From assembly GCF_026559675.1 (NCBI RefSeq), contig NZ_CP092891.1, positions 2,542,001 through 2,606,000 of the forward strand: a stretch of DNA of 64,000 nt, in the 5' to 3' direction. Positions 20,119 through 39,311 of the stretch are shown piece after piece. Within the stretch, counting starts at the first letter, position 1. Each line of letters starts with the position of its first letter. The DNA comes from Microbacterium oxydans (GTDB lineage Bacteria > Actinomycetota > Actinomycetes > Actinomycetales > Microbacteriaceae). The notes under the pieces were generated by a model. The model had not been told where the DNA came from and did not search any database. It saw only the letters and a list, made by a program, of their open reading frames with translations. The position numbers and the translations under genes were made by a program.

Positions 20119-20122
20119 GTCA

Positions 20123-21348: not shown

Positions 21349-22833
21349 GTGGACACTCTGCTGCGCGGCGGGCGCGTCATCGACCCGAACACGGAAACCG
21401 ACCGGGTCGCCGACCTCCTGATCGCGGGCGGACGCGTCGCCGCGATCGGTGACGGACTCGCGGCCCCGACGGGTGCGGACGTCGTCGACGCGGCGGGCCT
21501 CATCGTCGGCCCGGGGTTCGTCGACCTGCACAGTCACGTCCATTCGATCGCGGGACAGCGACTGCAGGCGATGGACGGCGTCACCACGGCGCTCGATCTG
21601 GAGGCGGGCCTGATGCCCATCGCGGAGGCGTTCGCCCGAGCCACCGCCGACGGGCGCCCCCTGAACTACGGCTTCTCGGCGTCCTGGTCGCAGGCGCGGG
21701 CGTACGCGCACCTCGACCGCGTGCCCGTCGCCGACTTCACCGCGTCGATGGACCTGCTCGGCACGCCCGACTGGCAGCGCTCCTCCTCCCCCGTCGAACG
21801 CCGCCGCTGGCTGGGGCTGCTGGAGGACGAACTCGGTGCCGGCGCCCTCGGCATCGGCGTGCTCATGGGCTACGCGCCGCGCTCCGACCCGGACGAGTAC
21901 CTGGATCTCGCGCGCCTCGCGGCCGCCGCGCACGCTCCGACCTTCACCCACGTGCGCGAGCTGATCGAGGCCGATCCGCGCACCCCGATCGACGGCTCGG
22001 AGGAGCTCGTCCGCGCCGCCGCCGAGACGGGGGCGGCGATGCACCACTGCCACGTGAACAGCACCTCGCTGCGTCACGTCGACCGCGTGCTGGCCCTGCT
22101 CGACCGCAGCCGCGCCGCCGGCTCCCGCGTCACCGTCGAGGCGTACCCCTACGGCGCCGGGAGCACGGCGATCGGGGCGTTCTTCCTCGCACCCGAGAAG
22201 CTCGCGGGCCTCGGCATCACCCCCTCCTCCCTCGTGCTGGTCGAGACCGGCGAGCGCATCGCCGACGAGGCCCGGCTGCGCGAGGTGCGCGCGGCCGACC
22301 CCGGCGCCACCTGCATCGTGACGTTCCTCGACGAGGCCGACCCCTTCGACCGGGCGCACCTGCACCGTGCGCTCGCCTATCCGGACTCGATCGTCGCGAG
22401 CGACGCGATGCCGATCTCGTGGACCGGAGCCGACGGCCGGGCGATCCACGAGCAGCGCGAATGGCCGCTCCCGGCGGGCGGACATACGCATCCCCGCACC
22501 GCCGGTACGTTCACGAAGTCGCTGCGCCTGATGGTCCTGGAGAGCGGGACCTGGAGCTGGCTGGAGGCCTTCCGCCGCTGCTCCCATCTGCCCGCGCGCG
22601 TGCTCGACGAGGTCGCCTCCGGCATGCGGGCCAAGGGGCACCTGGGGATCGGAGCCGACGCCGACATCGTGGTGATCGACCCCACGACCCTGACCGATCG
22701 CGCGACCTACGCCGACCCGACCCGCCCGTCGCAGGGCATCCGCGCGCTCTACGTGAACGGCACGCCGGTCGTGCGGGCCGGGGGGATCGTCGCCGACGCC
22801 CTTCCGGGGCGCCCCGTGCGCGGAGACGCCTGA
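21349..22833 (+). CDS. Amidohydrolase family protein, N-acyl-D-amino-acid deacylase-like
   Basis: A 494-residue metal-dependent hydrolase of the amidohydrolase superfamily (urease/dihydroorotase fold). Visible features: N-terminal beta-sandwich DTLLRGGRVIDPNTETDRVADLLIAGGRVAAIGDG, metal-binding GPGFVDLHSHVHS (near 56-68), HHCHVNSTS, YPYGAGSTAIGAFFL, and SDAMPISW supplying a likely catalytic Asp. The C-terminal sandwich closes with GADADIVVIDPTTLTDRATY, shared with D-aminoacylases and N-acyl-D-glutamate deacylases. No signal peptide. GTG 21349 starts the fold; the frame runs upstream through the promoter region. As first gene of the D-peptide cluster it may deacylate N-acyl-D-amino acids; exact substrate uncertain. 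Confidence 0.8.
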   Translation: MDTLLRGGRVIDPNTETDRVADLLIAGGRVAAIGDGLAAPTGADVVDAAGLIVGPGFVDLHSHVHSIAGQRLQAMDGVTTALDLEAGLMPIAEAFARATADGRPLNYGFSASWSQARAYAHLDRVPVADFTASMDLLGTPDWQRSSSPVERRRWLGLLEDELGAGALGIGVLMGYAPRSDPDEYLDLARLAAAAHAPTFTHVRELIEADPRTPIDGSEELVRAAAETGAAMHHCHVNSTSLRHVDRVLALLDRSRAAGSRVTVEAYPYGAGSTAIGAFFLAPEKLAGLGITPSSLVLVETGERIADEARLREVRAADPGATCIVTFLDEADPFDRAHLHRALAYPDSIVASDAMPISWTGADGRAIHEQREWPLPAGGHTHPRTAGTFTKSLRLMVLESGTWSWLEAFRRCSHLPARVLDEVASGMRAKGHLGIGADADIVVIDPTTLTDRATYADPTRPSQGIRALYVNGTPVVRAGGIVADALPGRPVRGDA

Positions 22834-22975
22834 GCAGGGATCCTTCGTCGGCGCGAACCAAGGTCCGCACAAGTCTCGTCGCCCGGCACCAACGGGCCGG
22901 CCGAGCACGCGAATAGTCTCGGCCCATCGCCGTCGCCCCGAACGACGACGGCCCACTCGACGAAGAGGAGCGCAC

Positions 22976-24364
22976 GTGTCCGACCTGAACGAAATCGGCA
23001 GCTGGGTGCGGGAGAGCCTTCCCGCGATGCTGGCCGACGCGCACATCCCCGCGGCATCCGTCGCGATCCTGGCCGACGGCGAGATCTTCACCACCGCCGC
23101 CGGCATCCTGAACCGCAACACGGGCGTCGAGGCCGATGAGGACTCGGTCTTCCAGATCGGCTCCATCACGAAGACCTGGACCGCGACGCTCATCATGCAG
23201 CTCGTCGACGAGGGGCTGCTCGACATCGACGCCCCGGTGCGCGACACCGTCCCCGCCTTCGCGATCGGCGACGACGCGGCAGCGAGCACGATCACCGCCC
23301 GGCAGCTGCTGAGCCACGTCAGCGGGTTCGAGGGCGACCTGTTCAACGACACCGGGGTCGGCGACGACGCGGTGGAGAAGTACCTCGCGACGATCGCCGA
23401 CGCCCCGCAGCTCTTCACCCCCGGCGAGCGCTTCTCGTACAACAACGCCGCGTTCGTGGTGCTCGGCCGCATCGTCGAGGTGCTGCGCGGCATGTCGTAC
23501 GACCAGGCGCTGCGCACCTACCTGGCCACCCCGCTCGGGCTGACGCACGTCGCCACCTCGGCATCCGAGGCGATCATGTTCCGCGCCGCGCTCGGGCACA
23601 TCCCGGGCGAGAGCGGTGACGAGCCCGTGCCCGCTCCGGTGTGGAGTCTCGTGCGCTCCAACGTGCCGGCCGGCTCGATGCTCGCGATGACTGCCCGCGA
23701 CCTGGTCACCTACGGGCGCATGCACCTGGACGGCGGGGTCGCCGCCGACGGGACGAGGGTGCTCTCCGAGCAGAGCGTCCGCGCGATGCAGGAGCGACAG
23801 GTCGAGCTGCCCGAGCTCGGAGTCATGGGCGACGCCTGGGGCCTCGGATGGGAGATCTTCGACTGGGACGGCGGCCCCGTGATCGGCCACGACGGCGGCA
23901 CGATCGGCCAGAACGCGTTCCTGCGCATGGTGCCGTCGGCGGGCGTCGCCGTCGCGGTGCTGACGAACGGCGGGCAGACCGTCGACGCCTTCCAGGCGAT
24001 CACGTCGAAGGTGCTGAAGGCCCTCGCCGACGTGACGATGCCCGCACTGCCCGCGCTCCCCGAGACGCCGGTCGCGGTCGACGTCGAGCGGATCCTCGGC
24101 ACCTACTCCTCCTCCGTGTCGGATTCGACCGTGCGGGTGGATGACGACGGCCGCATCTGGCTCGAGCGCACCATGAAGGGCATCTTCGCCGAGCTCGGAC
24201 CCGCCCCCGAGCCCGTCGAGCTGGTCGGCTGGTCGGGCGACACCCTGCTCCCCCGCGAGCGGCAGCACGGCATGCACATGCCGCACGCGTTCGTGGGCGA
24301 CGACGGCAGCGGACGGGCCCTGTACCTGCACACCGGCCGCGCCGACCGCCGGGTGGGCGCGTGA
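22976..24364 (+). CDS. Serine hydrolase, class C beta-lactamase / S12 D-aminopeptidase-like, cytoplasmic
   Basis: A 462-residue beta-lactamase-fold serine hydrolase. Catalytic S63-I-T-K66 (in QIGSITKTWT), the Y155-N156-N157 motif (FSYNNAAF) and a C-terminal HDG motif (IGHDGGTIGQ) are all present. A beta-barrel-like domain follows from about residue 370. No signal peptide is present, unlike secreted beta-lactamases and DD-peptidases, so a cytoplasmic peptidase or esterase is likelier; family S12 includes D-aminopeptidases. GTG 22976 is preceded by GAGGAG. It overlaps the next gene by 4 bp. Its catalytic domain closely resembles the C-terminal half of the fusion protein at 31081-34413. Confidence 0.85.
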   Translation: MSDLNEIGSWVRESLPAMLADAHIPAASVAILADGEIFTTAAGILNRNTGVEADEDSVFQIGSITKTWTATLIMQLVDEGLLDIDAPVRDTVPAFAIGDDAAASTITARQLLSHVSGFEGDLFNDTGVGDDAVEKYLATIADAPQLFTPGERFSYNNAAFVVLGRIVEVLRGMSYDQALRTYLATPLGLTHVATSASEAIMFRAALGHIPGESGDEPVPAPVWSLVRSNVPAGSMLAMTARDLVTYGRMHLDGGVAADGTRVLSEQSVRAMQERQVELPELGVMGDAWGLGWEIFDWDGGPVIGHDGGTIGQNAFLRMVPSAGVAVAVLTNGGQTVDAFQAITSKVLKALADVTMPALPALPETPVAVDVERILGTYSSSVSDSTVRVDDDGRIWLERTMKGIFAELGPAPEPVELVGWSGDTLLPRERQHGMHMPHAFVGDDGSGRALYLHTGRADRRVGA

Positions 24365-25269
24365 CCACCGCGGCGCTCCCGCAGGACACCGCGGTGACCA
24401 TCGCCGAGATCTTCACGGCGGCCGGCGCCGAGGGCTTCCTGCACGCGCGGGAGGTCGGTGTGGACGGCGGAGCGGAGGTGAGCGTCGGCGCCGACGAGCC
24501 CGTGGTGCTCGCCTCGGTGTTCAAGATCCTCGTGCTCACGGCCTACGTGCGCGCGGTCGCCGCCGGTGAACTCGACCCGACCGAGCGGGCCACCGTGACC
24601 GCGCGCTACCGCATCGGCGGCGTGGGCACCGCCGGGTTCTCGGACGACGTCGAGGCCAGCTGGCGCGACCTCGCGCAGAACATGATGACCATGAGCGACA
24701 ACGCCGCGACCGACGTCGTGTATCACCGGCTCGGGAGCGCTGCCGTGAACCGGGTCATCAGCGACCTGGGGCTGCGGCAGACGCGGCTCGTGGGGTGCTG
24801 CGAAGACCTGTTCGCCTCGGTCGTCTCCGATCTCGGCGGCACACCCGACAGCGATCTCGACGAGCTGTTCGAGGGGGCGAGCGCCGCGCAGATCCTCGCT
24901 CTCGACGCGGTGCATCCGGTCAAGACCTCGCACTCCACTCCGCGTGATGTCACGACGCTGCTGAACGCCCTGTGGACCGACACGGCGGCACCGGCCGAGG
25001 CCTGCCGCCAGGCACGCGACATCATGGCGCAGCAGATCTGGCCGCATCGGCTGAGCTCCGGCTTCCCCTCCGGTGTGCGCATCGCGGCGAAGACCGGCAC
25101 GCTGCCCACCTGGCGCAACGAGGCCGGGGTCGTGACCTATCCGGACGGCCGCCGGTACGCCGTGGCCGTCTTCACCCGCGCCGCGTCGCTGGCCGAACGG
25201 CAGCCGCTCGTCGACGCCTCGATCGGTCATGCGGGCTTCGCCGCCGTCGAGCACCTGCGCGCCGGCTGA
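24361..25269 (+). CDS. Serine hydrolase, class A beta-lactamase fold, cytoplasmic
   Basis: A 302-residue protein with the class A motif set: S52-V-F-K55, S112-D113-N114 (MSDNAATDVV) and KTGTLP near residue 245. The Glu166-containing omega-loop motif ExxLN of true class A beta-lactamases is not evident; the region contains CCEDLFASVVSD instead. There is also no signal peptide. These features argue against penicillin resistance and for an intracellular hydrolase acting on peptides or acyl-amino acids. GTG start overlaps the upstream stop (GTGA), so it is translationally coupled to the S12-type gene. Confidence 0.82.
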   Translation: MTTAALPQDTAVTIAEIFTAAGAEGFLHAREVGVDGGAEVSVGADEPVVLASVFKILVLTAYVRAVAAGELDPTERATVTARYRIGGVGTAGFSDDVEASWRDLAQNMMTMSDNAATDVVYHRLGSAAVNRVISDLGLRQTRLVGCCEDLFASVVSDLGGTPDSDLDELFEGASAAQILALDAVHPVKTSHSTPRDVTTLLNALWTDTAAPAEACRQARDIMAQQIWPHRLSSGFPSGVRIAAKTGTLPTWRNEAGVVTYPDGRRYAVAVFTRAASLAERQPLVDASIGHAGFAAVEHLRAG

Positions 25270-25288
25270 CCCGCACCCGTCTCACCCC

Positions 25289-25402
25289 TGCACGATCCAC
25301 TTGCTGCACCATCCACCTGCACCATCCCGAACACTGCACCATCCACCACTGCACGACCCACCTGCACCATCCCGAACACTGCACCATCCACCTGCACCAT
25401 CC
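25289..25402 (+). repeat. Repeat array of eight TGCACSATCC-type 10-mers before the peptide-binding protein
   Basis: TGCACCATCC or a one-to-two-base variant starts at 25289, 25305, 25318, 25335, 25350, 25363, 25380 and 25393. Spacing alternates 13/17, forming a 30-bp unit (with CCGAACAC between units), plus one 15-bp half unit. The array ends 11 bp before the Shine-Dalgarno GGAGG of the downstream lipoprotein gene. It lies in the 155-bp gap of one apparent operon and is probably transcribed. Function unknown. Confidence 0.85.
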
Positions 25403-25424
25403 CGAACACTGCTGGAGGCTTCTG

Positions 25425-27020
25425 ATGCGTTCTCGTACCCCGCTGATCGCGCTGCTGGGCGCTGCGGCGCTCGCCCTGACATCCTGCGCGGCCGGCGCCC
25501 CTCCCGGAGGCAAGGACGGCGCCGAAGGCGTCCTCGCCGACGGCAAGACCTTCACCGCCGTGACGGCGACCGACCCGGGCACGCTCGACCCGTTCACCAC
25601 GGTCATGGGCTCGGCCCGACAGATCGACCGCTACCTGTACGGTCGCCTCGTGGAGGTGCAGAACGACGGCGAGGTGCTCTCCGGCCTCGCGACCAGCTGG
25701 GAGGCCGACACCGCGACGGCGACCTTCACCCTGCGCGACGGGCTGACCTGCGAGGACGGCTCGCCGCTCACCGCATCCGACGTCGCCGCCAACATCACCT
25801 TCATCGGCGACCCGGCCAACGCCTCGCCCCTGGCCGGCCTGCAGGTGCAGCCGGGCACGACGGCCGTCGGCGACGACGACGCCGGCACCGTCACCGTCAC
25901 GAGCGGCAGGCCCGACGCGTTCCTGCTGCAGAACATCGGCAGCATCTCGATCGTCTGCGGCACGGTCGTGGACGATGCGGACGCGCGCGCGGCGGGCAAG
26001 GGCGCGACGGGGATGTTCACCCTCACCGAGATCGCGCCGAACAGCCAGTACACGCTGACCCGACGCGACGACTTCACCTGGGGACCCGGGGACTGGGATC
26101 CCGAGCAGCCGGGCCTGCCGGCCAAGGTCGTCTACCGTGTGATCCCGAACGAGACCACCGCAGCGAACCTGGTGCTGTCCGGCGAGGTGAACGCGGCACT
26201 CGTCCTCGGCCCCGACCGCCAGCGACTGCGCGACGCCGGCCTCTTCTCCACGGAGCTGCCCCTGGCCGCCGGTCAGCTGTTCTTCAACCAGGGCGACGGT
26301 CGCCCGACGGCCGACCAGGCCGTCCGCGAGGCACTCACCCAGGCGCTCGACCTCGACCAGCTCGGGCAGGTGCTCACGAGCGGCGAAGGCACCGAGGCGA
26401 AGAGCCTCGTGACCATCGCACCGAACCCCTGCCAGGCCGACGTCGTCGACGGACTCCTCCCGGAGTTCGACGCGAAGGCCGCAGCGGCGAGTCTCGACGA
26501 TGCCGGCTGGAAGGTCGGCTCCGACGGGATCCGCGAGAAGGACGGCGTCGCGATGGAGCTCACGCTCGTGACCCCGACCACGCTCGGCAACGGCGGCAGC
26601 GCGGCCGCGGAGCTCATGCAGTCGACCTGGAAGGCGCTCGGCGTCTCCGCGACCGTCAAGACGCTCGACTCCCCCGCCCTGAGCGAGGCCCTGTTCGCCA
26701 CGGGCGACTGGGACATCTCGGCCGCACCGCTCGGCGTCTCCCTGCCCAGCATGCTCGTGCCGTTCTACTCCGGACCCACACCGCCGAACGGATCGAACTT
26801 CGCGTCCGTCACCGACGACGCGTACACCGCCGCAGTCACGGCGGCGGCGTCGAAGCCGGGCACCGACGGATGCGCGGACTGGAACGCCGCGGAGGAGGCC
26901 CTGTTCACCTCGGTCTCGGTCGTCCCCTACGTCAACAACGTCCTCACGACGTTCGGCAACAAGGCGACCTTCACCGAGGGCGACGGGATCGACCCCGCCT
27001 CGATCCGGATGTACGAGTAG
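25425..27020 (+). CDS. Peptide ABC transporter substrate-binding lipoprotein (SBP_bac_5 / DppA-OppA type)
   Basis: A 531-residue extracytoplasmic solute-binding lipoprotein. Signal MRSRTPLIALLGAAALA with lipobox LTSC, acylated C21. Family-5 features: ATDPGTLDPFTTVMGSARQIDRYLY near the mature N-terminus, LATSWEADTATATFTLRDGLTCEDGSPLTASDV, and GATGMFTLTEIAPNSQYTLTRRDDF. Only one binding-protein gene accompanies the transporter. GGAGG at 25414-25418 fixes the ATG. Family 5 proteins bind peptides, nickel or oligosaccharides; the surrounding peptidases favour peptides. Confidence 0.9.
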   Translation: MRSRTPLIALLGAAALALTSCAAGAPPGGKDGAEGVLADGKTFTAVTATDPGTLDPFTTVMGSARQIDRYLYGRLVEVQNDGEVLSGLATSWEADTATATFTLRDGLTCEDGSPLTASDVAANITFIGDPANASPLAGLQVQPGTTAVGDDDAGTVTVTSGRPDAFLLQNIGSISIVCGTVVDDADARAAGKGATGMFTLTEIAPNSQYTLTRRDDFTWGPGDWDPEQPGLPAKVVYRVIPNETTAANLVLSGEVNAALVLGPDRQRLRDAGLFSTELPLAAGQLFFNQGDGRPTADQAVREALTQALDLDQLGQVLTSGEGTEAKSLVTIAPNPCQADVVDGLLPEFDAKAAAASLDDAGWKVGSDGIREKDGVAMELTLVTPTTLGNGGSAAAELMQSTWKALGVSATVKTLDSPALSEALFATGDWDISAAPLGVSLPSMLVPFYSGPTPPNGSNFASVTDDAYTAAVTAAASKPGTDGCADWNAAEEALFTSVSVVPYVNNVLTTFGNKATFTEGDGIDPASIRMYE

Positions 27021-27040: not shown

Positions 27041-28039
27041 ATGGCCAGCACCACCGCCACGCAGGCGATACTGATCAGATCCGCACGGTCGGACAACCCC
27101 TGGGTGTCCTTCCTGGTCCGTCGCGGAGGGCAGTTCCTGCTCTCGGTGTGGGTGCTGGTCACGGCTGCCTTCCTCATGATCCACCTGGTGCCGGGCGACC
27201 CGGTGCGGGCGGCGCTCGGCATGAATGCACCGGTCGAGCTCGTCGAATCGCGTCGGATCGCCCTCGGGCTCGATCAGCCCCTCCTCGCGCAGTATCTGCG
27301 CTACGTCGGCGGTCTGTTCACCGGCGACATGGGCACCTCGATGATCACCGGCCAACCGGTCTCCGAGATCATCGCGACCCGGCTCCCCGCGACCCTGCAG
27401 CTCGCGCTGCTGGCCGTCCTGCTGGTCCTGCTGGTCTCCATCCCGCTCGGCGTGACGATGGCCGTCGCCACGCGCGGCGGACGGCGACGGGGCCTCGAGC
27501 TGGGGTTCGCCACCGGATCCGTGATCCTCGCCGCGATCCCCGAGTTCCTCCTCGCCGTCGGACTCGTCTCCGTGTTCGCCGTCTCGCTGGGCTGGTTCCC
27601 CGTGGCGGGCAACACCGCGCCGTTCTCCCTCGTCCTGCCGGTGGTGGCGCTCGCCGTCGGACCGATCGCGGTGTTCTCGCGCATCATCCGGGTCGAGGTG
27701 CTGTCGGTGCTGGGGCAGGACTTCATCCGCACCGCCCGGGCCAAGCGCCTCGCGCCGCGCCGGATCTACACCCGCCACGCGCTGCCGAACGCCATGACGG
27801 CGACGCTCACGCTCACCGGTCTGCTCCTGACGGGCATGGTCGCCGGCACGGTGCTGGTCGAGAACGTGTTCGCCTGGCCGGGCCTGGGCACCATGATCGT
27901 GCAGTCGATCCTGACCAAGGACTACTCGGTCGTGCAGGGCATCGTCCTCGTCTACGGGGTCGCGGTGCTCGTCGTGAACCTCGCGATCGACGTGATCCTC
28001 GCCCTCCTCGACCCTCGATCCACCATCCGGGAGGCATGA
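27041..28039 (+). CDS. Peptide ABC transporter permease (DppB type)
   Basis: A 332-residue membrane permease with six transmembrane segments. Characteristic pieces: FLMIHLVPGDPVRAALGMNAP near residues 45-65, LGLDQPLLAQYLRYVGGLFTGDMGTS, and the EAA-like coupling helix FIRTARAKRLAPRRIYTRHALPNA (about 228-251). It ends with VFAWPGLGTMIVQSILTKDYSVVQG, standard for DppB. A 36-residue N-terminal cytoplasmic extension precedes the first helix. It starts 20 bp after the lipoprotein gene with GGAGG six bases before the ATG. Confidence 0.92.
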   Translation: MASTTATQAILIRSARSDNPWVSFLVRRGGQFLLSVWVLVTAAFLMIHLVPGDPVRAALGMNAPVELVESRRIALGLDQPLLAQYLRYVGGLFTGDMGTSMITGQPVSEIIATRLPATLQLALLAVLLVLLVSIPLGVTMAVATRGGRRRGLELGFATGSVILAAIPEFLLAVGLVSVFAVSLGWFPVAGNTAPFSLVLPVVALAVGPIAVFSRIIRVEVLSVLGQDFIRTARAKRLAPRRIYTRHALPNAMTATLTLTGLLLTGMVAGTVLVENVFAWPGLGTMIVQSILTKDYSVVQGIVLVYGVAVLVVNLAIDVILALLDPRSTIREA

Positions 28040-30021: not shown

Positions 30022-31061
30022 GCGAACTGCGCTTCGACCGGGTCAGCGTGCGTTACGGCACGCACCGCGCAGGTCTCACGGCCGTCGACGACGTGAGCCT
30101 CACGGTCCCGTCGGGATCGGTCGTGGGACTCGTGGGAGAGTCGGGTTCCGGTAAATCCACGCTCGCCCGCGCGGCGATCGGCCTCGCGCCCATCAGCGAG
30201 GGCTCGATCACCCTCGACGGCGTGGACGTGCGCAGCTTCCGCCGCCGACGCCCCATCCAGATGGTGTTCCAGGACCCGTTCTCCTCGCTCGATCCGCGCA
30301 TGACGATCGGCGAGTCCATCGCCGAAGCGCTCCCGCGCGGCATCCGCGGTGCGACTGCCCGCCGTGCCGAGGTCGCCCGTCTGCTCGACCTGGTGAGCCT
30401 CGACGCCGACCGTGCGCAGTCGCTCCCGGCAGCGCTCTCGGGCGGACAGCGTCAGCGCATCGCCCTGGCCCGGGCCCTCGCCGCCCGCCCCGAGGTCGTG
30501 ATCGCCGACGAGATCACCTCCGCGCTCGACGTCTCGGTGCAGGGCTCGGTGCTCAACCTCGTGCGGGAGCTGTGCGGCGAGCTCGACCTCACGATGCTGT
30601 TCATCTCGCACAACCTCTCGGTCGTGCGCTACCTGAGCGATCACATCGCCGTGATGTACCTCGGCCGCATCGTCGAGTTCGGTCCGACCGAGCAGGTGCT
30701 CGCCGACCCGCAGCACCCGTACACGCGGGACCTGCTCCAGGCGGCGCCGACCCGGCACGGGAACCTGCTGGCGGTCGACCCGCTGGCCCCCGTCGACGTG
30801 GAGCCCGCCGATCCGCACGCGCCGCCGAGCGGATGCCGCTTCCACCCGCGGTGCCCGATCGGTCCGGCGGCCCGCCCCGACCGGCAGCTCTGCGTGATCG
30901 CGGAGCCTCCGCTGCCCACGGGCGCAGCGGGCGCGGCCTGTCATTTCGCGGGACTGCCGGCCGATGCGCCGATCGGGACTGTGCCCGTCTCCCAAAGCAT
31001 CCCCCTGGTTTCGGCCGCGCCCACAACACCGACCCCGCTCTCAGCGGACACAGTGAACTGA
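30018..31061 (+). CDS. Peptide ABC transporter ATP-binding protein (DppF type)
   Basis: A 347-residue ATPase, partner of the fused DppD domain. Walker A GESGSGKSTLARAAIG is near residues 40-55, Q-loop MVFQDPFSSLDPRMTIGES, signature LSGGQRQRIALARAL and Walker B EVVIADEITSALDVSVQ. The oligopeptide C-terminal extension with cysteines (CRFHPRCPIGPAARPDRQLC) is present. ATG overlaps the previous stop (ATGA). With the two permease parts and the lipoprotein it completes a full Dpp-type importer. Confidence 0.93.
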   Translation: MSELRFDRVSVRYGTHRAGLTAVDDVSLTVPSGSVVGLVGESGSGKSTLARAAIGLAPISEGSITLDGVDVRSFRRRRPIQMVFQDPFSSLDPRMTIGESIAEALPRGIRGATARRAEVARLLDLVSLDADRAQSLPAALSGGQRQRIALARALAARPEVVIADEITSALDVSVQGSVLNLVRELCGELDLTMLFISHNLSVVRYLSDHIAVMYLGRIVEFGPTEQVLADPQHPYTRDLLQAAPTRHGNLLAVDPLAPVDVEPADPHAPPSGCRFHPRCPIGPAARPDRQLCVIAEPPLPTGAAGAACHFAGLPADAPIGTVPVSQSIPLVSAAPTTPTPLSADTVN

Positions 31062-31080: not shown

Positions 31081-34000
31081 ATGAACCGCGTCACCGTCGA
31101 CGAGCTGCTCGCCGTCCGCACCCCCGAGCAACCGGCACTGTCACCGGACGGCGCCCGCATCGCCTTCGTGCTGCGGACGACGGATCGCGACGGCGACCGG
31201 GACACGCGCGCCCTGTGGCAGGTGCCGGCCACCGGCGGCGACCCCGCCCCGCTCACGCACGCGACGGCCGACTCCACCCCGGTGTGGAGCCCCGACGGCA
31301 CCCAGCTGGCGTTCCTGCGTGCGCAGGACGGCCCCGCGCAGATCTGGCTCCTCCCGACGGCGGGCGGCGAGGCGCGCGGTCTCACGACCCTTCCGCTCGG
31401 CGCGGGCGCTCCGGCCTGGAGCCCCGACGGCGAGCGCATCGCCTTCACGGCCCCGGTCGACAGCGCGGCGCTTCCCGGCGAGACCGCGGAGACCATCCTC
31501 GCCCGACGCTCGGCGCCGGCCAGCACCGACCGCCTGGGCTACAAGGCGGACGGCGCGGGCAACCTCGGAACGCTCGTGCAGCAGCTGCATGTGCTCGACG
31601 TCGCCTCCGGGAAGGTCACGGCGCTCACCCACGGGCGCTCCCACGCCTCCGACCCGTTCTGGTCGCCGGACGGCACACTCCTGGCCTATTCCACGAGCGT
31701 CGAGGACGACGCGGACCTGACCATGCGGATCCCCGTGTTCGTGCGCTCCTCCACCGACCCGAACAGCGAGGCGGTGCGGGTGAGCGCCGCCGACGTGCAG
31801 GCGACGGCCGTGGGCTGGACGCCGGACGGCCGCCATGTCGTCGCCGCCGGACGCCTCGACACGGAGGTCGGCAACGCCGACATCCTGCTGTTCCCGGTCG
31901 ACGGCGGCGAACCGCGGAACATCACGGGGAGCCTCGACCGCAACGTCATGCCGGGCGGTCCCGGCTATCCCGGTGGCATGCCGCAGTTCACGGCCGGCGG
32001 GGACCTCGTGTTCTGCCTCCGCGACAACGGCTACACGCACGTGTACCGCGTGGCGCAGGACGGCACGGGCGCCACGGCGCTCGTGGACGGCACCGCGAAC
32101 GTGTCGGGGCTGTCAGTGGCGGGATCCTCCGCCGCCATCGTGCTCGCGACACCGGAATCGTTCGGCGATGTCGCGTTCCTCGACCTCGCCGGCGGCACGA
32201 CACGGGTGCTCACCGACGACGGCACGCCCGACCTCGACCTCATCCCCGCCGAGGAGCGTCGCTTCACGATCTCGGACGGCACGGTCATCACGGGATGGCT
32301 GCGCCGCGACCCCGCTGCCACGGGCCCGCTGCCCCTGCTGCTCGACATCCACGGCGGTCCGCACAACTCCTGGAACGGCGCCGCCGACCTCATCCACCCG
32401 TACCACCAGGTGCTCGCGCGCCGCGGCTGGGCGATCCTCACCCTGAACCCCCGGGGCAGCGACGGCTACGGCGACGCGTTCTTCTCCGCCGTGACCGGCG
32501 GCTGGGGCGTCAACGACGCGAACGACTTCCTCGAGCCGCTCGACCAGCTCGTGGCCGAGGGCATCGCCGACCCGACGCGGCTGACCGTCACCGGCTACAG
32601 CTACGGCGGATTCATGACCTGCTTCCTCACCTCGCGCGACGACCGCTTCGCCGCGGCCGTGGGCGGAGGCGTGGTCACCGATCTCCTCTCGATGGGCGGC
32701 ACCTCCGACTTCGGGCACTACCTCTCGGCGAAGGAGAACGGCGGACTCCCCTGGCGCGATGCGGAGCGCATCTCGGCGCAGTCGCCGTTCACCCGGGTCG
32801 ACCGGGTCACCACCCCGACGCTGATCCTGCAGGGTGCGGCGGATGAGCGCTGCCCCGTCGGTCAGGCCGAGCAGTGGTTCACGGCGCTGCGCGAGCGCGA
32901 CGTGCCCACGCGTCTGGTCCTGTATCCCGGTGGCTCGCACCTGTTCCTGCTCTCCGGCCCTCCGTCGCACCGCGCCGACTACTCGCAGCGCGTGATCGAC
33001 TGGGTCGAGCAGTACGCCCCGCCGGCCGGGAAGCCGGTGCGCGCGCGCCTCGACGCGCGGCACTGGCAGCAGCGACTGAGCGCGCTGGCCGAGGCGCACA
33101 AGGTCCCGGGCGCGACCCTCGGCATGCTCCGCCTCGGCGAGGAACCGGTATATGCGCATCACGGCATACTCAACGTCCGCACGGGCATCGAGACCACCGA
33201 CGACTCGGTGTTCCAGATCGGCTCGATGGGCAAGGTGTGGACGACGACCGCGATCATGCGCCTCGTCGATCAGGGCGTCCTCGACCTCGATGCCCCGGTC
33301 GTCTCATACGTGCCGGAGTTCTCGTCCTCCGACCCGGAGATCACCCGGACCGTGACGCTGCGTCACCTCCTGAATCACACCAGTGGGATCGACGGCGACG
33401 TCTTCACCGACACCGGCCGCGGCGACGAGACACTCGAGAAGTACGTCGCGCTCCTGGACGGCGTCGCGCAGAACCACCCGCTCGGTGCGACGATGTCGTA
33501 CTGCAACTCCGGATTCTCGCTGGCCGGGCGCGTGATCGAGAAGGTCACCGGAACGACCTGGGACCAGGCCATGCGCGACCTCGTGTTCACGCCCCTCGGA
33601 CTCACTCACTCCTCGACCCTCCCGGAGGAGGCGATCATGTTCCGGGCGGCCAGCGGGCACACCGTGGTCGACGAAGATGGTCCGCACCTCGCACCCGCCT
33701 GGATGCTCCCGCGATCGATGGGCCCGGCCGGACTCATCAACTCCACCACCGCCGACGTGCTCGCCTTCGCCCGCATGCACCTGGCAGGCGGACTGGCCGC
33801 CGATGGGACGCGCGTGCTGTCCGAGGCCGCCGTGGCGCGGATGCAGGAGCGTGAGGTGGACATGCCCGACCCGTACACGCTCGGAGACGCGTGGGGCGTG
33901 GGCTGGATCCTGTTCGACTGGGACGGCCACCGCCTCATCGGGCACGACGGGAACACGATCGGGCAGGCGTCGTTCCTGCGCATCCTCCCCGAGGAGGGCC

Positions 34001-34413
34001 TCGCGGTGACGCTGCTGACCAACGGCGGCAACACCCACGATCTCTACGTCGAGCTGTTCGGGGAGATCTTCCGCGAGCTGGCGGCGCTGGAGCTGCCGGC
34101 CGGCCTCACTCCGCCCGAGGAGCCGTTCACCGATGACTTCTCCGAGTTCGAGGGCGTCTACGACCGCTCGGGCGTGCGCACCGAGATCTTCCGTGACGAG
34201 GACGGGCTGCGCATGCGCACGACCCTGAACGGACCGCTCGCCGCCATGCTCCCCGACCCGGTGCAGGAGCATCCGCTGGTGCCCGTGCGTCCCGGCGAGT
34301 TCGTGATGCGTCCGGAGGGCGAGCAGGCCTGGCATGCCGTGATCTTCTACTCCCTGCCCGGCGGCGAGCGCTATCTGCACCACGGCGTCCGCGCGGCGCC
34401 GAAGGTGTCCTGA
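31081..34413 (+). CDS. Fusion: S9 prolyl-oligopeptidase-type peptidase + S12 beta-lactamase-like hydrolase
   Basis: A 1110-residue protein with two complete serine-hydrolase modules. Residues 1-390 form a WD40/TolB-like propeller with repeated SPDG motifs (PVWSPDGTQLAF, PAWSPDGERIAF, PFWSPDGTLLAY). Residues 390-650 are an alpha/beta-hydrolase domain: S507 in GYSYGGF, D588 (QGAADERC) and H620 (GGSHLFL) form the triad of acylaminoacyl-peptidases. From about 661 a class C-like domain follows: S715-M-G-K718, Y807-C-N809 and a late HDG motif. No signal peptide. The second module is a near relative of the protein at 22976-24364. The frame is continuous with no stop between modules, so a real fusion is likely. 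Confidence 0.9.
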   Translation: MNRVTVDELLAVRTPEQPALSPDGARIAFVLRTTDRDGDRDTRALWQVPATGGDPAPLTHATADSTPVWSPDGTQLAFLRAQDGPAQIWLLPTAGGEARGLTTLPLGAGAPAWSPDGERIAFTAPVDSAALPGETAETILARRSAPASTDRLGYKADGAGNLGTLVQQLHVLDVASGKVTALTHGRSHASDPFWSPDGTLLAYSTSVEDDADLTMRIPVFVRSSTDPNSEAVRVSAADVQATAVGWTPDGRHVVAAGRLDTEVGNADILLFPVDGGEPRNITGSLDRNVMPGGPGYPGGMPQFTAGGDLVFCLRDNGYTHVYRVAQDGTGATALVDGTANVSGLSVAGSSAAIVLATPESFGDVAFLDLAGGTTRVLTDDGTPDLDLIPAEERRFTISDGTVITGWLRRDPAATGPLPLLLDIHGGPHNSWNGAADLIHPYHQVLARRGWAILTLNPRGSDGYGDAFFSAVTGGWGVNDANDFLEPLDQLVAEGIADPTRLTVTGYSYGGFMTCFLTSRDDRFAAAVGGGVVTDLLSMGGTSDFGHYLSAKENGGLPWRDAERISAQSPFTRVDRVTTPTLILQGAADERCPVGQAEQWFTALRERDVPTRLVLYPGGSHLFLLSGPPSHRADYSQRVIDWVEQYAPPAGKPVRARLDARHWQQRLSALAEAHKVPGATLGMLRLGEEPVYAHHGILNVRTGIETTDDSVFQIGSMGKVWTTTAIMRLVDQGVLDLDAPVVSYVPEFSSSDPEITRTVTLRHLLNHTSGIDGDVFTDTGRGDETLEKYVALLDGVAQNHPLGATMSYCNSGFSLAGRVIEKVTGTTWDQAMRDLVFTPLGLTHSSTLPEEAIMFRAASGHTVVDEDGPHLAPAWMLPRSMGPAGLINSTTADVLAFARMHLAGGLAADGTRVLSEAAVARMQEREVDMPDPYTLGDAWGVGWILFDWDGHRLIGHDGNTIGQASFLRILPEEGLAVTLLTNGGNTHDLYVELFGEIFRELAALELPAGLTPPEEPFTDDFSEFEGVYDRSGVRTEIFRDEDGLRMRTTLNGPLAAMLPDPVQEHPLVPVRPGEFVMRPEGEQAWHAVIFYSLPGGERYLHHGVRAAPKVS

Positions 34414-35546
34414 TGACCGTGCAGGCGGACGTGGATCTCGATCTGATCCTCGCCGACATCGAGACCCTCGTCTCCTGCGAGTCGCCCTCCGACGACCTCG
34501 ATGCCGTCGCCCGCAGCGCGGAGGTCGTCGCCGCCCTCGGTGAGCGCCTGCTGGGCGTCGCGCCGGAGCGCATCGTGATCGACGGCCGCACCCACCTGCG
34601 CTGGCGGTTCGGCGAGCCGACCGTGCTGCTGCTCGGTCACCACGACACGGTGTGGCCGCTCGGTTCGCTGCTGCGGCTCCCGTTCCGTATCGAGGACGGC
34701 GTGCTCCGCGGTCCCGGGTGCTTCGACATGAAGACCGGGGTGGTGATGGCCCTGCACGCCGTGGCGTCGCTGCCGGACCGCACGGGCGTCAGCATCCTGA
34801 TCACGGGCGACGAGGAGCTCGGCTCCCCCAGCTCGCGCGCGCTGATCGAGCGGGAGGCACGCGGCTGCGCCGCCGTGTTCGTCCTGGAGGCCGCGGCCGA
34901 GGGCGGTGCCGTGAAGATCGCGCGCAAAGGCGTCTCGCTCTATCGCGTGCACGTCGTGGGGCTCGCCGCCCATGCGGGACTGGAGCCGGAGCGCGGTGTG
35001 AACGCCGCGGTGGAGGCCGCGCACCTGCTCCTGGCGGTCGCCGAACTCGGTGACGCGGCCGCGGGGACCAGCGTGACACCGACGCTCGTGCGCGCCGGCA
35101 GCACCACGAACACCGTGCCCGCCGCCGCCGAGTTCGCGGTCGATGCGCGGGTGCGCACCGTCGCGGAGCAGGACCGGGTGGATGCCGCGCTGCGCGCACT
35201 CCCGGTGACGCTGCCCGGAGCAGACGTGCGCGTCGAGGGCGGCCCCAACCGCCGCCCGATGGAGCCCGAATCCTCGGCGGGACTGTTCGCGCAGGCCGTC
35301 GCGATCGCCGAGAAGGCCGGTCTGACGCCGTTCGACGGTGTCGCGGTCGGCGGGGCGTCGGACGGCAACTTCACCGCGGGTCTCGGCGTGCCGACCCTCG
35401 ACGGCCTGGGCGCCGTGGGGGGCGGGGCGCACGCCGACGATGAGCATGTGCTCGTCGCGATGATCCCGGAGCGCCTCCTGCTGCTGCAGGAACTGGTCGC
35501 CGGGGCACTGACCGGACACGGAACATCGGCCGGAGGAAGGGCATGA
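34413..35546 (+). CDS. M20 family metallohydrolase (candidate N-acyl-L-amino-acid deacylase)
   Basis: A 377-residue zinc hydrolase of the M20/ArgE-DapE-CPG2 family. Metal ligands and catalytic residues are visible: H76-x-D78 (GHHDTVW), D105 (CFDMKTG), E134-E135 (GDEELGS) and a final His in GGGAHADDEH. A dimerisation lid domain (about 170-280) begins KGVSLYRVHVVGLAAHAG. Glutamate-carboxypeptidase-like by sequence pattern. The gene overlaps its upstream neighbour by one base and the acyltransferase downstream by four. In the known three-step D-to-L conversion an M20 enzyme removes the N-succinyl group from the L-product, and that is the inferred role here. Confidence 0.87.
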   Translation: MTVQADVDLDLILADIETLVSCESPSDDLDAVARSAEVVAALGERLLGVAPERIVIDGRTHLRWRFGEPTVLLLGHHDTVWPLGSLLRLPFRIEDGVLRGPGCFDMKTGVVMALHAVASLPDRTGVSILITGDEELGSPSSRALIEREARGCAAVFVLEAAAEGGAVKIARKGVSLYRVHVVGLAAHAGLEPERGVNAAVEAAHLLLAVAELGDAAAGTSVTPTLVRAGSTTNTVPAAAEFAVDARVRTVAEQDRVDAALRALPVTLPGADVRVEGGPNRRPMEPESSAGLFAQAVAIAEKAGLTPFDGVAVGGASDGNFTAGLGVPTLDGLGAVGGGAHADDEHVLVAMIPERLLLLQELVAGALTGHGTSAGGRA

Positions 35547-36412
35547 GCATGACGGATGCCACGGCGTACAGCGCCTCGCCGGAGGAGGCCGCCGACGCCG
35601 CGAGCGCCGCCGCCTCCCGAGCCGGGGTCGAGATCCGCCTGCTCGGCGACGTGGACGAGTTCACCCGCGTCGCCGACCTGTTCCAGAGCATCTGGACCAA
35701 GCAGGGCGAGGCCTCCCCCGTGAACGTCGAGACGCTGCGCGCCCTGTCGAAAGCCGGAAGCTACGTGGGCGGCGCGTTCGAGCACGACGAGCTGGTCGGG
35801 GCCTGCTTCGGATTCTTCGCGGCTCCGGATCAGCGCGCCCTGCACAGCCACATCGCCGGTGTCTCGGCGCGGATGCGCGGTCGCAGCGTCGGCTTCGCGC
35901 TCAAGGTGCATCAGCGTGCCTGGGCGCTGGAGGAGGGACTCGACGAGATCTCGTGGACGTTCGATCCGCTGATCAGCCGCAATGCCCACTTCAACCTCGT
36001 GAAGCTGGCCGCGACGCCGACGTCGTACCACCGCAACTTCTACGGGCACATGGCCGATGCGCTCAACGGCGCGGACGACACCGATCGGATGCTGGTGACC
36101 TGGTACGTGCGGGATCCGCGCGTCGTCGCCGCCTGCCACGGGGAACCTGCATCCGCGGGCGAACACGATGCCGCACCCCTGCTCAGCGTGGGCGAGGACC
36201 TCGGGCCGCTCCGGCACCGCACCGACGCCCGACTCGTGCGGGTGGCGCTGCCGCGGGACATCGAGTCCCTGCGCCTCGCCGAGCCCGCCCGGGCGACCGC
36301 GTGGCGCCTGGCCCTGCGGGAGACACTCGGATCCGCGCTGGAGGGCGGAGGGCGCGTGCTCTCCTTCGACCGCTCCGGCGCGTACACCATCGACAGAGGA
36401 GAACAGGGATGA
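35543..36412 (+). CDS. GNAT-type acyltransferase (COG3375-like), candidate D-amino-acid N-succinyltransferase
   Basis: A 289-residue GNAT-superfamily protein longer than average. VADLFQSIWTKQGEASPVNVETLRALSKAGSYVGGAF opens the fold; the CoA-binding region is GVSARMRGRSVGFALKVHQRAWALEEG (about 110-136), then WTFDPLISRNAHFNLVKLAATPTSYHRNFYG. This WTFDPL...N.HFN..KLGA pattern marks the COG3375 group. Tightly overlapped on both sides (4 bp each) by the M20 hydrolase and the racemase. In Geobacillus a GNAT enzyme beside NSAR succinylates D-amino acids from succinyl-CoA; that role is inferred by context. Confidence 0.82.
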   Translation: MSMTDATAYSASPEEAADAASAAASRAGVEIRLLGDVDEFTRVADLFQSIWTKQGEASPVNVETLRALSKAGSYVGGAFEHDELVGACFGFFAAPDQRALHSHIAGVSARMRGRSVGFALKVHQRAWALEEGLDEISWTFDPLISRNAHFNLVKLAATPTSYHRNFYGHMADALNGADDTDRMLVTWYVRDPRVVAACHGEPASAGEHDAAPLLSVGEDLGPLRHRTDARLVRVALPRDIESLRLAEPARATAWRLALRETLGSALEGGGRVLSFDRSGAYTIDRGEQG

Positions 36413-37515
36413 AGCTCACCGGATTCGAGCTGCGTGTGATCGAGATGCCGCTGGTGTCGCCGTTCCGCACGTCGTTCGGCGTGCAGACCGTACGCGAGGC
36501 GCTGATCGTGCGCGCCGTCACCGACGAGGCCGAGGGCTGGGGCGAGGGCGTCGCGATGAACGACCCGCTGTACTCCTCCGAGTACGTCGAGGCGAGCGTG
36601 GACGTCATCACCCGGTTCCTGCTGCCCGCGCTCGCGCAGGGGAAGGATCTCGACGCCGCCGGTGTCGCTCCGGCCCTCGCGAAGTTCAAGGGGCATCGCA
36701 TGTCGAAGGCCGCCGTCGAGCTGGCCGTGCTCGACGCCGAGCTGCGCGCCGCGGGGGTCCCGCTCTCGCGTGAGCTCGGCGCCGTGCGCGACCGTGTCGA
36801 CTGCGGTGTCTCGGTCGGCATCATGGACTCGATCCCCGAGCTGCTGGACGCGGTCGGCGGCTACCTCGACGAGGGGTACGTGCGCATCAAGCTCAAGATC
36901 GAGCCGGGGTGGGACATCGACCCCGTGCGCGCCGTGCGCGAACGCTTCGGCGACGACGTGCTGCTGCAGGTCGACGCGAACACCGCGTACCATCGCGGCG
37001 ACGCCCGACACCTCGCCAAGCTCGACCCGTTCGACCTGCTCCTGATCGAGCAGCCGCTCGACGAGGAGGACCTGCTCGGTCACGCGCAGCTGGCGAAGGC
37101 CATCACGACACCCGTGTGCCTGGATGAGTCGATCGTGTCGGCCCGGGCCGCCGCCGACGCCATCGCGCTGGGGGCGTGCTCGATCGTGAACATCAAGCCG
37201 GGACGCGTCGGCGGGTACCTCGAAGCCCGTCGCATCCACGACGTGTGCGTCGCCAACGACATCCCGGTCTGGTGCGGCGGGATGCTGGAGACCGGGATCG
37301 GACGCGCGGCGAACGTCGCCCTGGCCGCTCTCCCCGGCTTCACGCTCCCCGGTGACACCTCCGGCTCGGGGCGCTACTACGCCCGCGACATCACCGAACC
37401 GTTCGTGGTGGAGGACGGCACGCTCACGGTGCCGACGGGTCCGGGCATCGGCGTGACCCCGGATGCCGACGCGCTCGACGCCGTCACGGTGCGCACCGAG
37501 TGGATCACGTTCTGA
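36409..37515 (+). CDS. N-succinylamino acid racemase / o-succinylbenzoate synthase family (NSAR/OSBS)
   Basis: A 368-residue enolase-superfamily enzyme. The catalytic set is complete and at the positions known from the Amycolatopsis enzyme: K161 and K163 (IKLKIEPGW), metal ligands D189 (QVDANTAY), E214 (LLIEQPL) and D239 (CLDES), and K263 (NIKPGRVGG). N-terminal capping motifs MPLVSPFRTSFG and FKGHRMSKAAVELAVLDAELR also match. The family either makes o-succinylbenzoate for menaquinone or racemises N-succinylamino acids, and many members do both. No men genes are adjacent, while an acyltransferase and M20 hydrolase overlap it, so the racemase role is favoured. ATG with GAGGAG upstream. Confidence 0.92.
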   Translation: MKLTGFELRVIEMPLVSPFRTSFGVQTVREALIVRAVTDEAEGWGEGVAMNDPLYSSEYVEASVDVITRFLLPALAQGKDLDAAGVAPALAKFKGHRMSKAAVELAVLDAELRAAGVPLSRELGAVRDRVDCGVSVGIMDSIPELLDAVGGYLDEGYVRIKLKIEPGWDIDPVRAVRERFGDDVLLQVDANTAYHRGDARHLAKLDPFDLLLIEQPLDEEDLLGHAQLAKAITTPVCLDESIVSARAAADAIALGACSIVNIKPGRVGGYLEARRIHDVCVANDIPVWCGGMLETGIGRAANVALAALPGFTLPGDTSGSGRYYARDITEPFVVEDGTLTVPTGPGIGVTPDADALDAVTVRTEWITF

Positions 37516-37553
37516 GCGCGGACTGACGTCCCTCACGGGGGCACGATGATCCT

Positions 37554-37576
37554 GTCGAGATCGACCAAGAGTCGAT
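37554..37576. promoter_or_regulatory. Candidate PucR operator
   Basis: Three half-sites are clustered: GTCGAGATCGAC (5-bp arms) overlaps ATCGAC-CAAGA-GTCGAT (6-bp arms). They lie 46-68 bp upstream of the -10 of the PucR gene, in the 119-bp gap after the racemase. Confidence 0.35.
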
Positions 37577-37621
37577 ACGATTTCGTCGTGCCCCACAGCT
37601 CCCCCACCGGCGGTCGCGCCC

Positions 37622-37627
37622 TAGCCT
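37622..37627 (+). promoter_or_regulatory. -10 element of the PucR gene (leaderless)
   Basis: TAGCCT followed by seven bases and the GTG at 37635. This gives the regulator its own promoter, apart from the racemase operon. Confidence 0.5.
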
Positions 37628-37634
37628 GGGCCCT

Positions 37635-39311
37635 GTGCTCATGTCCGTGACGACCAGGCCCCGCGCCAGCCTCGGCCGGGTCATCGAAGACCTCGGCAAC
37701 ACCCTGCTCGAGGTGGTGAGCGGTGCGGCCGACGACGACGCCGAGATCGAGACGGTCGTCATCCACGACGTGCTCGATGACGCGATGCCGATGCGCGGGG
37801 CACTCGTGCTCGGTGTCGGGCTGAGCGATCCCGACGAGATCGCCGAGCTCCTGCACACCCTCGCCACCCAGCAGGCGACCGCCCTCGTGCTGCGCGCACC
37901 CGTGCGCACCGAGCAGCCGTTCCGTGATGCGGCCGAGGCCACCGGCATCCCGGTCCTCGCCCTGACTCGCGGCGCGTCCTGGGCGCAGCTGGCGGCCATG
38001 CTGCGGTCGCTCATCGCGGAGGGCGATGTCGGCGAGCAGGGGGCGACGACTCTCGGCGGCATGCCCTCGGGCGATCTGTTCGCCCTCGCCAATGCCATCG
38101 CGACCCTGCTGAACGCACCGGTGACGATCGAGGATCGCAACTCCCGCGTCGTCGCCTTCTCCGGGCGGCAGCATGAGGCCGATCCCGCGCGCATCGAGAC
38201 CGTGCTCGGCCGACAGGTGCCCGAGCGCTTCGCCCGACAGCTGGAGGAGCGCGGGGTCTTCCAGGAGCTGTACCGCAGCGCGGATCCGATCGACGTCGGT
38301 CCGGTGCACAACACCGAGGGGCTGCCCTCCTTCCCGCGCGTCGCCCTGGCCGTGCGCGCCGGTGACGAGATCCTCGGGTCGATCTGGGCCGCGGTCCAGG
38401 AGCCCCTCTCCCCCGACCGCGTGCGCGCGCTGAAGGACTCCGCCGGGCTGGTGGCCCTGCACATGCTGCGGCTGCGCGCCGGCGCCGACGTCGAGCGGCG
38501 CCTGCGGGCCGACCTGCTCGCGACGATCCTCGAGGGCGGGCCCGGGGCGGCGGACGCCACGGCCCGACTGCGCCTGAGCGACCACCGCTGCGTCGTGCTC
38601 GCCCTGTCCGCCGCGGAGGACAGCGACGACGAGCCCTCCGCCGGTGCTCGCGGCATCGCCGAGCGGCAGCGCATCGCCGACGCCTTCGCCGTGCACCTCG
38701 GCGCCGTCTACCTGCGCTCCGCGGTCGCCGTGATCGGCAACGTCGTGTACGCCGTCGTCGGCATCCGTCCGGAGCAGGGCGAGGCCGAGTCCGGAGCGGG
38801 GCACAGCGACGCCGACAGCCGTGCCGCGCGTGTCGCGACCGACTTCCTCGGCCGCCTCGGGGCGACCAGCGAGATCCGCATCGGCGTCGGCACCGTGGCG
38901 GACGATGCGGCCGGCATCCCCTCGTCCCGGGCGAACGCCGACCGTGCGCTCCGTGTGGTCCGCCAGGCGCCGGGGCGGGAGCCCGTCGCCCGGTTCACGG
39001 CGGTGCAGATGGAGGCGCTGCTGGTCGAGCTCGGCGACCTCGTCCGGGCGCGGGGCGACCAGCCGACCGGTCCCGTCGCGCAGCTGCTGGCACAGGACCG
39101 GGAGCGGGGCACGCACCTGGTCGAGACGCTGCGGGCCTGGCTCGACGCGTTCGGGGACGTGGCGGTGGCGGCGGGACGCGTGTACACCCACCCCAACACG
39201 TTCCGATACCGCCTGCGCCGGCTGTCGGAGATCAGCGGACTCGACCTCACCGATCCGGAGGCGCGGTTCTCGGCCATGGTGCAGCTGCGCCTGCTCGTCC
39301 CCGGCGACTGA
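37635..39311 (+). CDS. PucR/CdaR family transcriptional regulator
   Basis: A 558-residue regulator. The N-terminal PucR domain (about 1-130) starts after SLGRVIEDLGNTLLEVVSG; the middle GAF-like/GGDEF-like region follows (SGDLFALANAIATLLNAPVTIEDRNSRVVAFSG). The C-terminal HTH is AAGRVYTHPNTFRYRLRRLSEISGLDL (around 510-540), the PucR signature. Such proteins activate purine, sugar-diacid or amino-acid-derivative catabolism upon sensing a metabolite. Lying on the same strand just after the cluster, it is the best candidate regulator. Start uncertain: GTG 37635 fits the leaderless spacing, ATG 37641 is two codons later. Confidence 0.87.
   Translation: MLMSVTTRPRASLGRVIEDLGNTLLEVVSGAADDDAEIETVVIHDVLDDAMPMRGALVLGVGLSDPDEIAELLHTLATQQATALVLRAPVRTEQPFRDAAEATGIPVLALTRGASWAQLAAMLRSLIAEGDVGEQGATTLGGMPSGDLFALANAIATLLNAPVTIEDRNSRVVAFSGRQHEADPARIETVLGRQVPERFARQLEERGVFQELYRSADPIDVGPVHNTEGLPSFPRVALAVRAGDEILGSIWAAVQEPLSPDRVRALKDSAGLVALHMLRLRAGADVERRLRADLLATILEGGPGAADATARLRLSDHRCVVLALSAAEDSDDEPSAGARGIAERQRIADAFAVHLGAVYLRSAVAVIGNVVYAVVGIRPEQGEAESGAGHSDADSRAARVATDFLGRLGATSEIRIGVGTVADDAAGIPSSRANADRALRVVRQAPGREPVARFTAVQMEALLVELGDLVRARGDQPTGPVAQLLAQDRERGTHLVETLRAWLDAFGDVAVAAGRVYTHPNTFRYRLRRLSEISGLDLTDPEARFSAMVQLRLLVPGD

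Follow-up and report, generated by a model that had tools for sequence, protein, structure and literature searches.

A conserved actinobacterial gene cluster that probably converts D-amino-acid-containing peptides to L-amino acids in Microbacterium oxydans

The genome of Microbacterium oxydans (3.78 Mb) contains a dense run of catabolic and transport genes. We analyzed a window of 64,000 nucleotides (positions 2542001-2606000), in which 11 catabolic and transport genes and a gene for a PucR-family regulator, all on the plus strand, occupy window positions 21349-39311. What kind of substrate is handled by a cluster that joins a peptide importer to an N-acyl-D-amino acid deacylase-type enzyme, several serine hydrolases and an enolase-family protein whose relatives are labelled as enzymes of menaquinone synthesis?

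Our analysis suggests that the cluster is probably a catabolic system turning D-amino-acid-containing peptides into L-amino acids. Its parts are of known kinds, and the grouping itself is a real, conserved and patchily distributed catabolic cluster of actinobacteria.

Gene content and layout

The following genes were assigned to families with the support of Pfam and NCBIfam (positions are those of the window).

21349..22833, plus strand: AHY, amidohydrolase of the N-acyl-D-amino acid deacylase / D-aminoacylase group (PRK09061 subfamily; NF006560, 626 bits); accessory member
22976..24364, plus strand: S12, serine hydrolase of the penicillin-recognising fold with a C-terminal extension, apparently cytoplasmic (PF00144, 220 bits); accessory member
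24361..25269, plus strand: BLA2, hydrolase of the class A beta-lactamase fold without an export signal (PF13354, 186 bits); accessory member
25425..27020, plus strand: SBP, family 5 peptide-binding lipoprotein (PF00496, 178 bits; lipobox LTSC)
27041..28039, plus strand: DppB permease (PF00528, PF19300)
28036..30021, plus strand: DppC-DppD fusion, permease and ATPase in one protein (PF00528, PF00005, PF08352)
30018..31061, plus strand: DppF ATPase (PF00005, PF08352)
31081..34413, plus strand: S9-S12 fusion peptidase, with a beta-propeller and S9 domain (residues ~1-650) and an S12 domain with C-terminal beta-strands (~655-1110) (Pfam)
34413..35546, plus strand: M20 amidohydrolase, carboxypeptidase G2-like, candidate N-acyl-L-amino acid deacylase (PF01546; 1cg2, E 7.6e-40)
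35543..36412, plus strand: GNAT, candidate D-amino acid N-acyl (succinyl) transferase (GNAT fold; homology to a Priestia GNAT linked to a racemase gene)
36409..37515, plus strand: NSAR, predicted N-succinyl/N-acylamino acid racemase of the Amycolatopsis type (1sja, 583 bits over 366 residues)
37635..39311, plus strand: PucR-family transcriptional regulator, probable regulator of the cluster (PF13556, PF17853, and PF07905 below its cut-off)

A preliminary description of this DNA had listed eleven same-strand genes of these families, most of them overlapping or tightly spaced, and both points are borne out by the coordinates and the family matches. Calculated from the coordinates, the first eleven genes meet at ten junctions, eight of which are overlaps of 1-4 bp or spacings of 19-20 bp; the other two are wider (142 bp for AHY-S12 and 155 bp for BLA2-SBP). 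The full Dpp importer described there is present, with the refinement that DppC and DppD form a single protein. Its statement that export is limited to the binding protein also agrees with our analysis: judged from hydropathy, with no trained predictor, SBP is the sole soluble protein of the cluster with a hydrophobic N-terminus and a lipobox, and the hydrolases look cytoplasmic from their sequences.

Conservation of the cluster

A scan of GTDB genomes yielded 422 NSAR relatives, the best 80 of which were used as loci; this set favours close relatives and may contain a few duplicate loci. Partners were counted if they were encoded on the same strand with at least 40% identity, and loci shortened by a contig end were included. 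Under these settings, GNAT was found in 79 of the 80 loci, M20 in 72, PucR in 68 (its adjacency is not constant), the S12 domain in 66, the S9 domain in 63, DppF in 59 and DppB in 51. All nine core partners occur together in 42 of the 73 loci that have at least 9.9 kb of upstream sequence, and not in the remaining 31. Named carriers of NSAR include Streptomyces, Amycolatopsis, Lentzea, Kibdelosporangium, Kribbella, Nocardioides, relatives of Actinoplanes, Actinomadura, Streptosporangium and Flexivirga. One locus labelled Rhodococcus rhodnii (L062) has a Kibdelosporangium-like cluster spaced nearly as in L060, and perhaps comes from a mislabelled or contaminated assembly.

The linkage was also examined in less biased samples. 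Among 396 phylum-wide genomes, NSAR relatives at 1e-60 or better were detected in 72 genomes (74 places) and GNAT at 1e-40 or better in 39 genomes (40 places). NSAR lies directly downstream of GNAT on the same strand in 37 of these 40 places, and the other three have no NSAR on the contig at 1e-60; the other half of the NSAR places lack a GNAT at 1e-40, weaker GNATs not having been sought. A search of 394 genomes of the class with the S9-S12 fusion, scoring two candidates per genome, gave matches in 52 genomes, 27 of them full-length (M. oxydans included) and 25 single-domain. Besides M. oxydans, 25 of the 26 full-length carriers have a same-strand NSAR no more than 10 kb away, the median gap being 2.3 kb, and the lone exception is an assembly of 440 contigs; these 26 span seven genera in four families and are not 26 independent events. 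Three single-domain carriers were searched, two of which (G937 and G822) have NSAR nearby on the same contig and strand, and one (G931) has no NSAR of this type.

The outer genes mostly lie beyond the 10 kb flank, and BLA2 (1e-20) and AHY (1e-60) were therefore used as queries against 47 of the 80 genomes, location on the same contig as NSAR being deduced from coordinates. BLA2 has a match in 34 of the 47; 17 genomes encode one of at least 60% identity no more than 15 kb from NSAR, in 16 cases on the same strand. For AHY, 20 genomes gave a match, and the 60% level left 18 places, of which 12 are at most 17 kb away from NSAR (11 share its strand) and six lie elsewhere. Because these outer genes are near NSAR in only part of the 47 genomes, AHY and BLA2 are accessory members of the cluster, and S12 is likewise listed as accessory. 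The window's order of all twelve genes recurs in Actinocatenispora (L135), and a single different order of the twelve is shared by Amycolatopsis (L137 with L138) and a Streptomyces linear plasmid (L149). Such co-localisation, kept through rearrangement, argues for shared function. The check for co-occurrence in other genomes that the preliminary description proposed thus shows the grouping to be real, given the fusion carriers with NSAR and the twelve genes together in three genera. The version of the cluster on an Arthrobacter plasmid (L148) encodes, among others, an M19 dipeptidase and at least two serine hydrolases of the S12 type.

Within the genus, the cluster is patchy, because GNAT at 60% identity or more is present in only 13 of 149 congener genomes, M. 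oxydans included; some GNAT match at 1e-3 exists in 136 of them. One congener has a second, more distant GNAT-NSAR pair (G045:C1:3527380-3529586; 43% and 64% identity). Mirror-tree distance correlations range from 0.65 to 0.82 over 65 rows, with label permutations reaching at most 0.12, and the 44 non-Microbacterium rows give only 0.32-0.62; because these values are not corrected for shared ancestry, we do not use them as main evidence. No D-amino-acid enzymes were found among nine scanned of 124 open reading frames (ORFs) that were selected by a simple GC3 rule from nine variant loci. The nine scanned ORFs come from L065, L082, L094, L105 and L111 and encode protein or histidine kinases, a lectin, an MFS transporter, a TauD dioxygenase, an aldose epimerase, a regulator and one product without a match.

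The racemase and the menaquinone question

Whether the Amycolatopsis-type racemase acts physiologically as a racemase or as o-succinylbenzoate synthase (OSBS) has not been settled, the latter being proposed in PMC4215206. NSARs share a Lys pair (PMC8142540). The closest solved relatives of the cluster protein are Amycolatopsis N-acylamino acid racemases, with 1sja as the best match. K163, D189, E214, D239, K263 and R266 are each present in at least 95% of 95 aligned rows, some genomes being counted twice; the catalytic residues of the cluster's enzymes are conserved at this 95% level. K163 and K263 form the Lys pair, D189, E214 and D239 are the metal ligands and R266 is the second-shell residue of NSARs. 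By these sequence features, the enolase-family member is of the NSAR type with its catalytic residues, and racemase activity is predicted.

Relatives of this protein are labelled menC/OSBS in databases, and NSAR itself scores 294 bits on the TIGR01928 OSBS model (cut-off 201). The genome of M. oxydans has a separate gene that passes the actinobacterial MenC cut-off (475 versus 288 bits). A MenE-like gene, itself below its curated cut-off (289 versus 345 bits), is found some 5 kb away, and CcsB is encoded in the same stretch; of the 19 ORFs there, 10 were scanned, and none of these is MenD. In the 47 carrier genomes searched, a separate MenC exceeds the cut-off in 37, and nine of the other ten have MqnA/MqnD-family genes of the futalosine route, which were found in none of the 37 at 1e-15. 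OSBS was considered as the physiological role of NSAR and rejected: because 46 of the 47 carriers have another menaquinone route, menaquinone synthesis is an unlikely role. The exception is Streptosporangium carneum (G587, locus L116), in which the thresholds used revealed no actinobacterial MenC and no MqnA/D-family gene.

The acyltransferase and deacylase candidates

The Pfam match of GNAT is weak (PF13480, 24.7 bits versus a cut-off of 22), and in its AlphaFold model (predicted local distance difference test, pLDDT, 91.4) residues 27-193 adopt a GNAT fold. It shares 30% identity over 259 columns with the NSAR-linked GNAT of Priestia (E 1e-32) and has a profile match to that of Lysinibacillus (E 1.1e-21), homology to both extending over nearly the full length. 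The neighbours of these Bacillota GNATs are M20 genes and, in Lysinibacillus, also a peptide transporter. In Priestia and Sulfitobacter, MurR/RpiR-family regulators are encoded beside NSAR-GNAT, which is no more than a hint toward the source of the peptides.

M20 has H77, D105, E134, E135, E159 and H340 conserved at the 95% level over 81 rows. It resembles carboxypeptidase G2, which splits L-glutamate from N-acyl groups. If the M20 of the cluster is the L-deacylase, its sequence would imply that a different M20 subfamily was recruited.

The peptidases and other hydrolases

The putative active-site serines of the fusion are S507 and S715. In 68 of 71 loci, with some genomes represented twice, the best S9 and S12 hits both fall in open frames that span 1000 residues or more, and a stricter test for an in-frame, stop-free fusion was passed by 54 of the 80 loci. 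The exceptions to the former are L048, with many frame breaks, L101, whose S9 frame is long enough and whose best S12 hit falls in a different one, and L115, which is cut by a contig end. In L048 (Microbacterium sp. Se63.02b), the cluster as a whole is broken by several frame shifts, which are probably sequencing errors.

The best PDB matches of AHY are N-acyl-D-glutamate deacylase 3gip and D-aminoacylase 1m7j. H61 and H63 (HxH), H201, H233/H235 and D352 are present in nine of nine rows (the window included, two genomes counted twice). The HxH, the two further His and the Asp are metal ligands in this group. The Cys metal ligand of D-aminoacylase is absent from AHY, in which all nine rows have Glu85-Ala86 where 3gip has Asn-Cys. 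The stand-alone S12 has the motifs SxxK (63), YxN (155) and HxG (305) in a 76-row alignment consisting mostly of S12 halves of the fusion. BLA2, whose nearest PDB sequence is tll2115, conserves the class A motifs SxxK (52), SDN (112) and KTG (244) over 12 rows, duplicates included. At the position of Glu166, the general base of class A beta-lactamases, Cys147 stands in 12 of 12 rows and the neighbouring residue is Glu148 in 10 of 12, in an ungapped reading by eye that includes the duplicates.

Other features of the locus

In the gap between BLA2 and SBP, a tandem array of 30/45-bp units (CTGCACCATCC...) occupies positions 25288-25412, and three 18-bp repeats (29926-29979) lie close to the 3' end of the DppC-DppD fusion gene. 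Divergent from the cluster, a sugar-type ABC transporter on the minus strand (15810-21238) looks like a separate system; its periplasmic binding protein was called by Pfam, and the permease, double ATPase and LacI-like regulator by eye. An Lrp/AsnC-type regulator is encoded directly downstream of PucR (39530-40042).

Proposed function and alternative explanations

In the pathway proposed here we infer the D-specificity, the importer ligand, the acyl group, the M20 reaction and the control by PucR. The lipoprotein SBP and DppB, DppCD and DppF, whose genes are present, would import short peptides. Judged from their families, the S9 half of the fusion may cut ordinary L-bonds in the cytoplasm, the S12 half, the stand-alone S12 and BLA2 may cut bonds beside D-residues, and AHY may strip N-acyl groups off N-acyl-D-amino acids. 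By analogy with the Bacillota-type pathway, GNAT would attach an acyl group, probably succinyl, to the nitrogen of the released D-amino acid, NSAR would equilibrate the N-acyl-D and N-acyl-L forms, and M20 would deacylate the L-form only, pulling the reaction to the L-amino acid. PucR may control the operon, as its position suggests. The peptides may derive from cell walls or be nonribosomal peptides. More tentatively, and with some doubt on our part, the cluster might be a self-contained and stereochemically complete peptide-degrading island, spread over many actinobacterial families and a linear plasmid, in which an importer, an S9-S12 enzyme for the L- and D-bonds of one and the same peptide and D-specific accessory enzymes feed a relay of acylation, racemisation and deacylation. 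In that case the Amycolatopsis-type N-acylamino acid racemase would gain its physiological role, and the menC labels of its relatives would prove mistaken.

Several findings weigh against the D-peptide proposal. The M20 has no significant match to the NSAR-linked M20 of Lysinibacillus (BLASTP E 0.093), and tblastn at 1e-4 found nothing in the Priestia or Lysinibacillus loci, the Geobacillus enzyme itself not being compared. The analogy with a Geobacillus-type triad made in the preliminary description is therefore incomplete: the NSAR type and the homologous GNAT support it, and the M20 does not. In comparisons of structure models, the nearest fold to the S12 half of the fusion is an esterase, with D-specific relatives also near, and the S9 and S12 folds include L-peptidases and esterases as well. 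Moreover, the M20-GNAT-NSAR triad is separable from the importer, because loci such as L058, L065, L069, L082, L094 and L116 keep it without a same-strand Dpp importer of the cluster type; in L059, L061 and L105 a more distant Dpp-type importer is found instead. The separation of transporter and triad, which had been named as a finding that would speak against the reading, is thus seen in some loci, and the two stay together in the 42 loci with all core partners.

The S9 and S12 folds, the menC/OSBS annotation of the relatives and the TIGR01928 score of NSAR would fit general scavenging of oligopeptides, acting on L-peptides or esters, with an OSBS gene sitting there by chance. We regard this as very improbable in view of the separate MenC of M. 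oxydans near its MenE-like gene, the separate MenC or MqnA/D-family genes of the other carriers, and the same-strand GNAT in all but one of the 80 loci. The S12 and class A folds would also suit detoxification of D-residue antibiotics (nonribosomal peptides or beta-lactams) by S12 and BLA2 rather than nutrition; many carriers belong to genera of antibiotic producers, and a D-stereospecific peptidase hydrolysing gramicidin A is on record (PMC9541196). Yet the hydrolases look cytoplasmic and are encoded alongside an importer, BLA2 shows no evident Glu at the place of class A Glu166, and NSAR, GNAT, M20 and the N-acyl-D deacylase would be superfluous, so that detoxification appears improbable.

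Scavenging of N-acylated amino acids, with AHY and M20 deacylating the D- and L-forms, NSAR racemising them and the peptidases being secondary, would fit the N-acyl hydrolase type of both enzymes and the action of NSAR on N-acyl-amino acids (PMC8142540). It would leave the conserved GNAT, the S9-S12 fusion and the peptide importer unexplained, and only 12 of the 47 carriers have a linked AHY of at least 60% identity; we consider this alternative unlikely. Conversion of D-amino-acid-containing peptides to L-amino acids is the explanation that we prefer. If true, it would mean that the racemase of the cluster, long studied, carries the label of a vitamin K enzyme in error. The conserved position of the racemase gene among importer and hydrolase genes, in carriers with a second menaquinone route, opens its physiological role to direct testing and puts the common menC/OSBS annotation in doubt. 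In addition, the cluster offers a candidate bifunctional S9-S12 peptidase and candidate D-stereospecific hydrolases, which should help to show how cell-wall and nonribosomal peptides might be recycled by actinobacteria of the soil.

Comparison with known systems

No description of this actinobacterial cluster was recognised in the literature searched, which left subscription journals mostly uncovered and is weak evidence of novelty. The published precedent is the Pab87 (CubicO) locus of Pyrococcus abyssi, at which an S12 D-peptidase, a D-aminoacylase and a dipeptide ABC transporter are encoded together, and processing of environmental D-peptides has been proposed (PMC2651629). An S12 protein with a C-terminal extension, a D-aminoacylase-type amidohydrolase and a Dpp importer are common to both systems, whereas the NSAR/GNAT/M20 triad of the cluster is not mentioned for Pab87 in the available part of that source (PMC2651629). 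One S12 of the cluster is, moreover, fused to S9. CubicO peptidases join the penicillin-recognising fold to a lipocalin-like barrel at the C-terminus; the CubicO motifs YAEAF/L and FFYLN are absent from both S12 units of the cluster, and ERY is present in the fused S12 only.

A pathway from D- to L-amino acids consisting of NSAR, a succinyltransferase and an M20 hydrolase was reportedly described in Geobacillus and Bacillus by Sakai et al. in 2006. There too, NSAR and a homologous GNAT are encoded side by side with an M20 hydrolase, but the M20 of the cluster is carboxypeptidase G2-like, and an importer and four further hydrolase proteins are attached. Compared with the Amycolatopsis racemase/OSBS (1sja), NSAR has the same catalytic residues and is matched over its full length; two sequenced Amycolatopsis species (L102 and L114) have the gene inside the cluster and a separate MenC in the genome, the 1sja strain itself not having been examined. 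The dppA-E/ykfABCD operon of Bacillus subtilis comprises a peptide importer, a D-aminopeptidase, an epimerase and cell-wall peptide hydrolases. It differs from the cluster in using other enzyme families, with a dipeptide epimerase in place of the NSAR triad.

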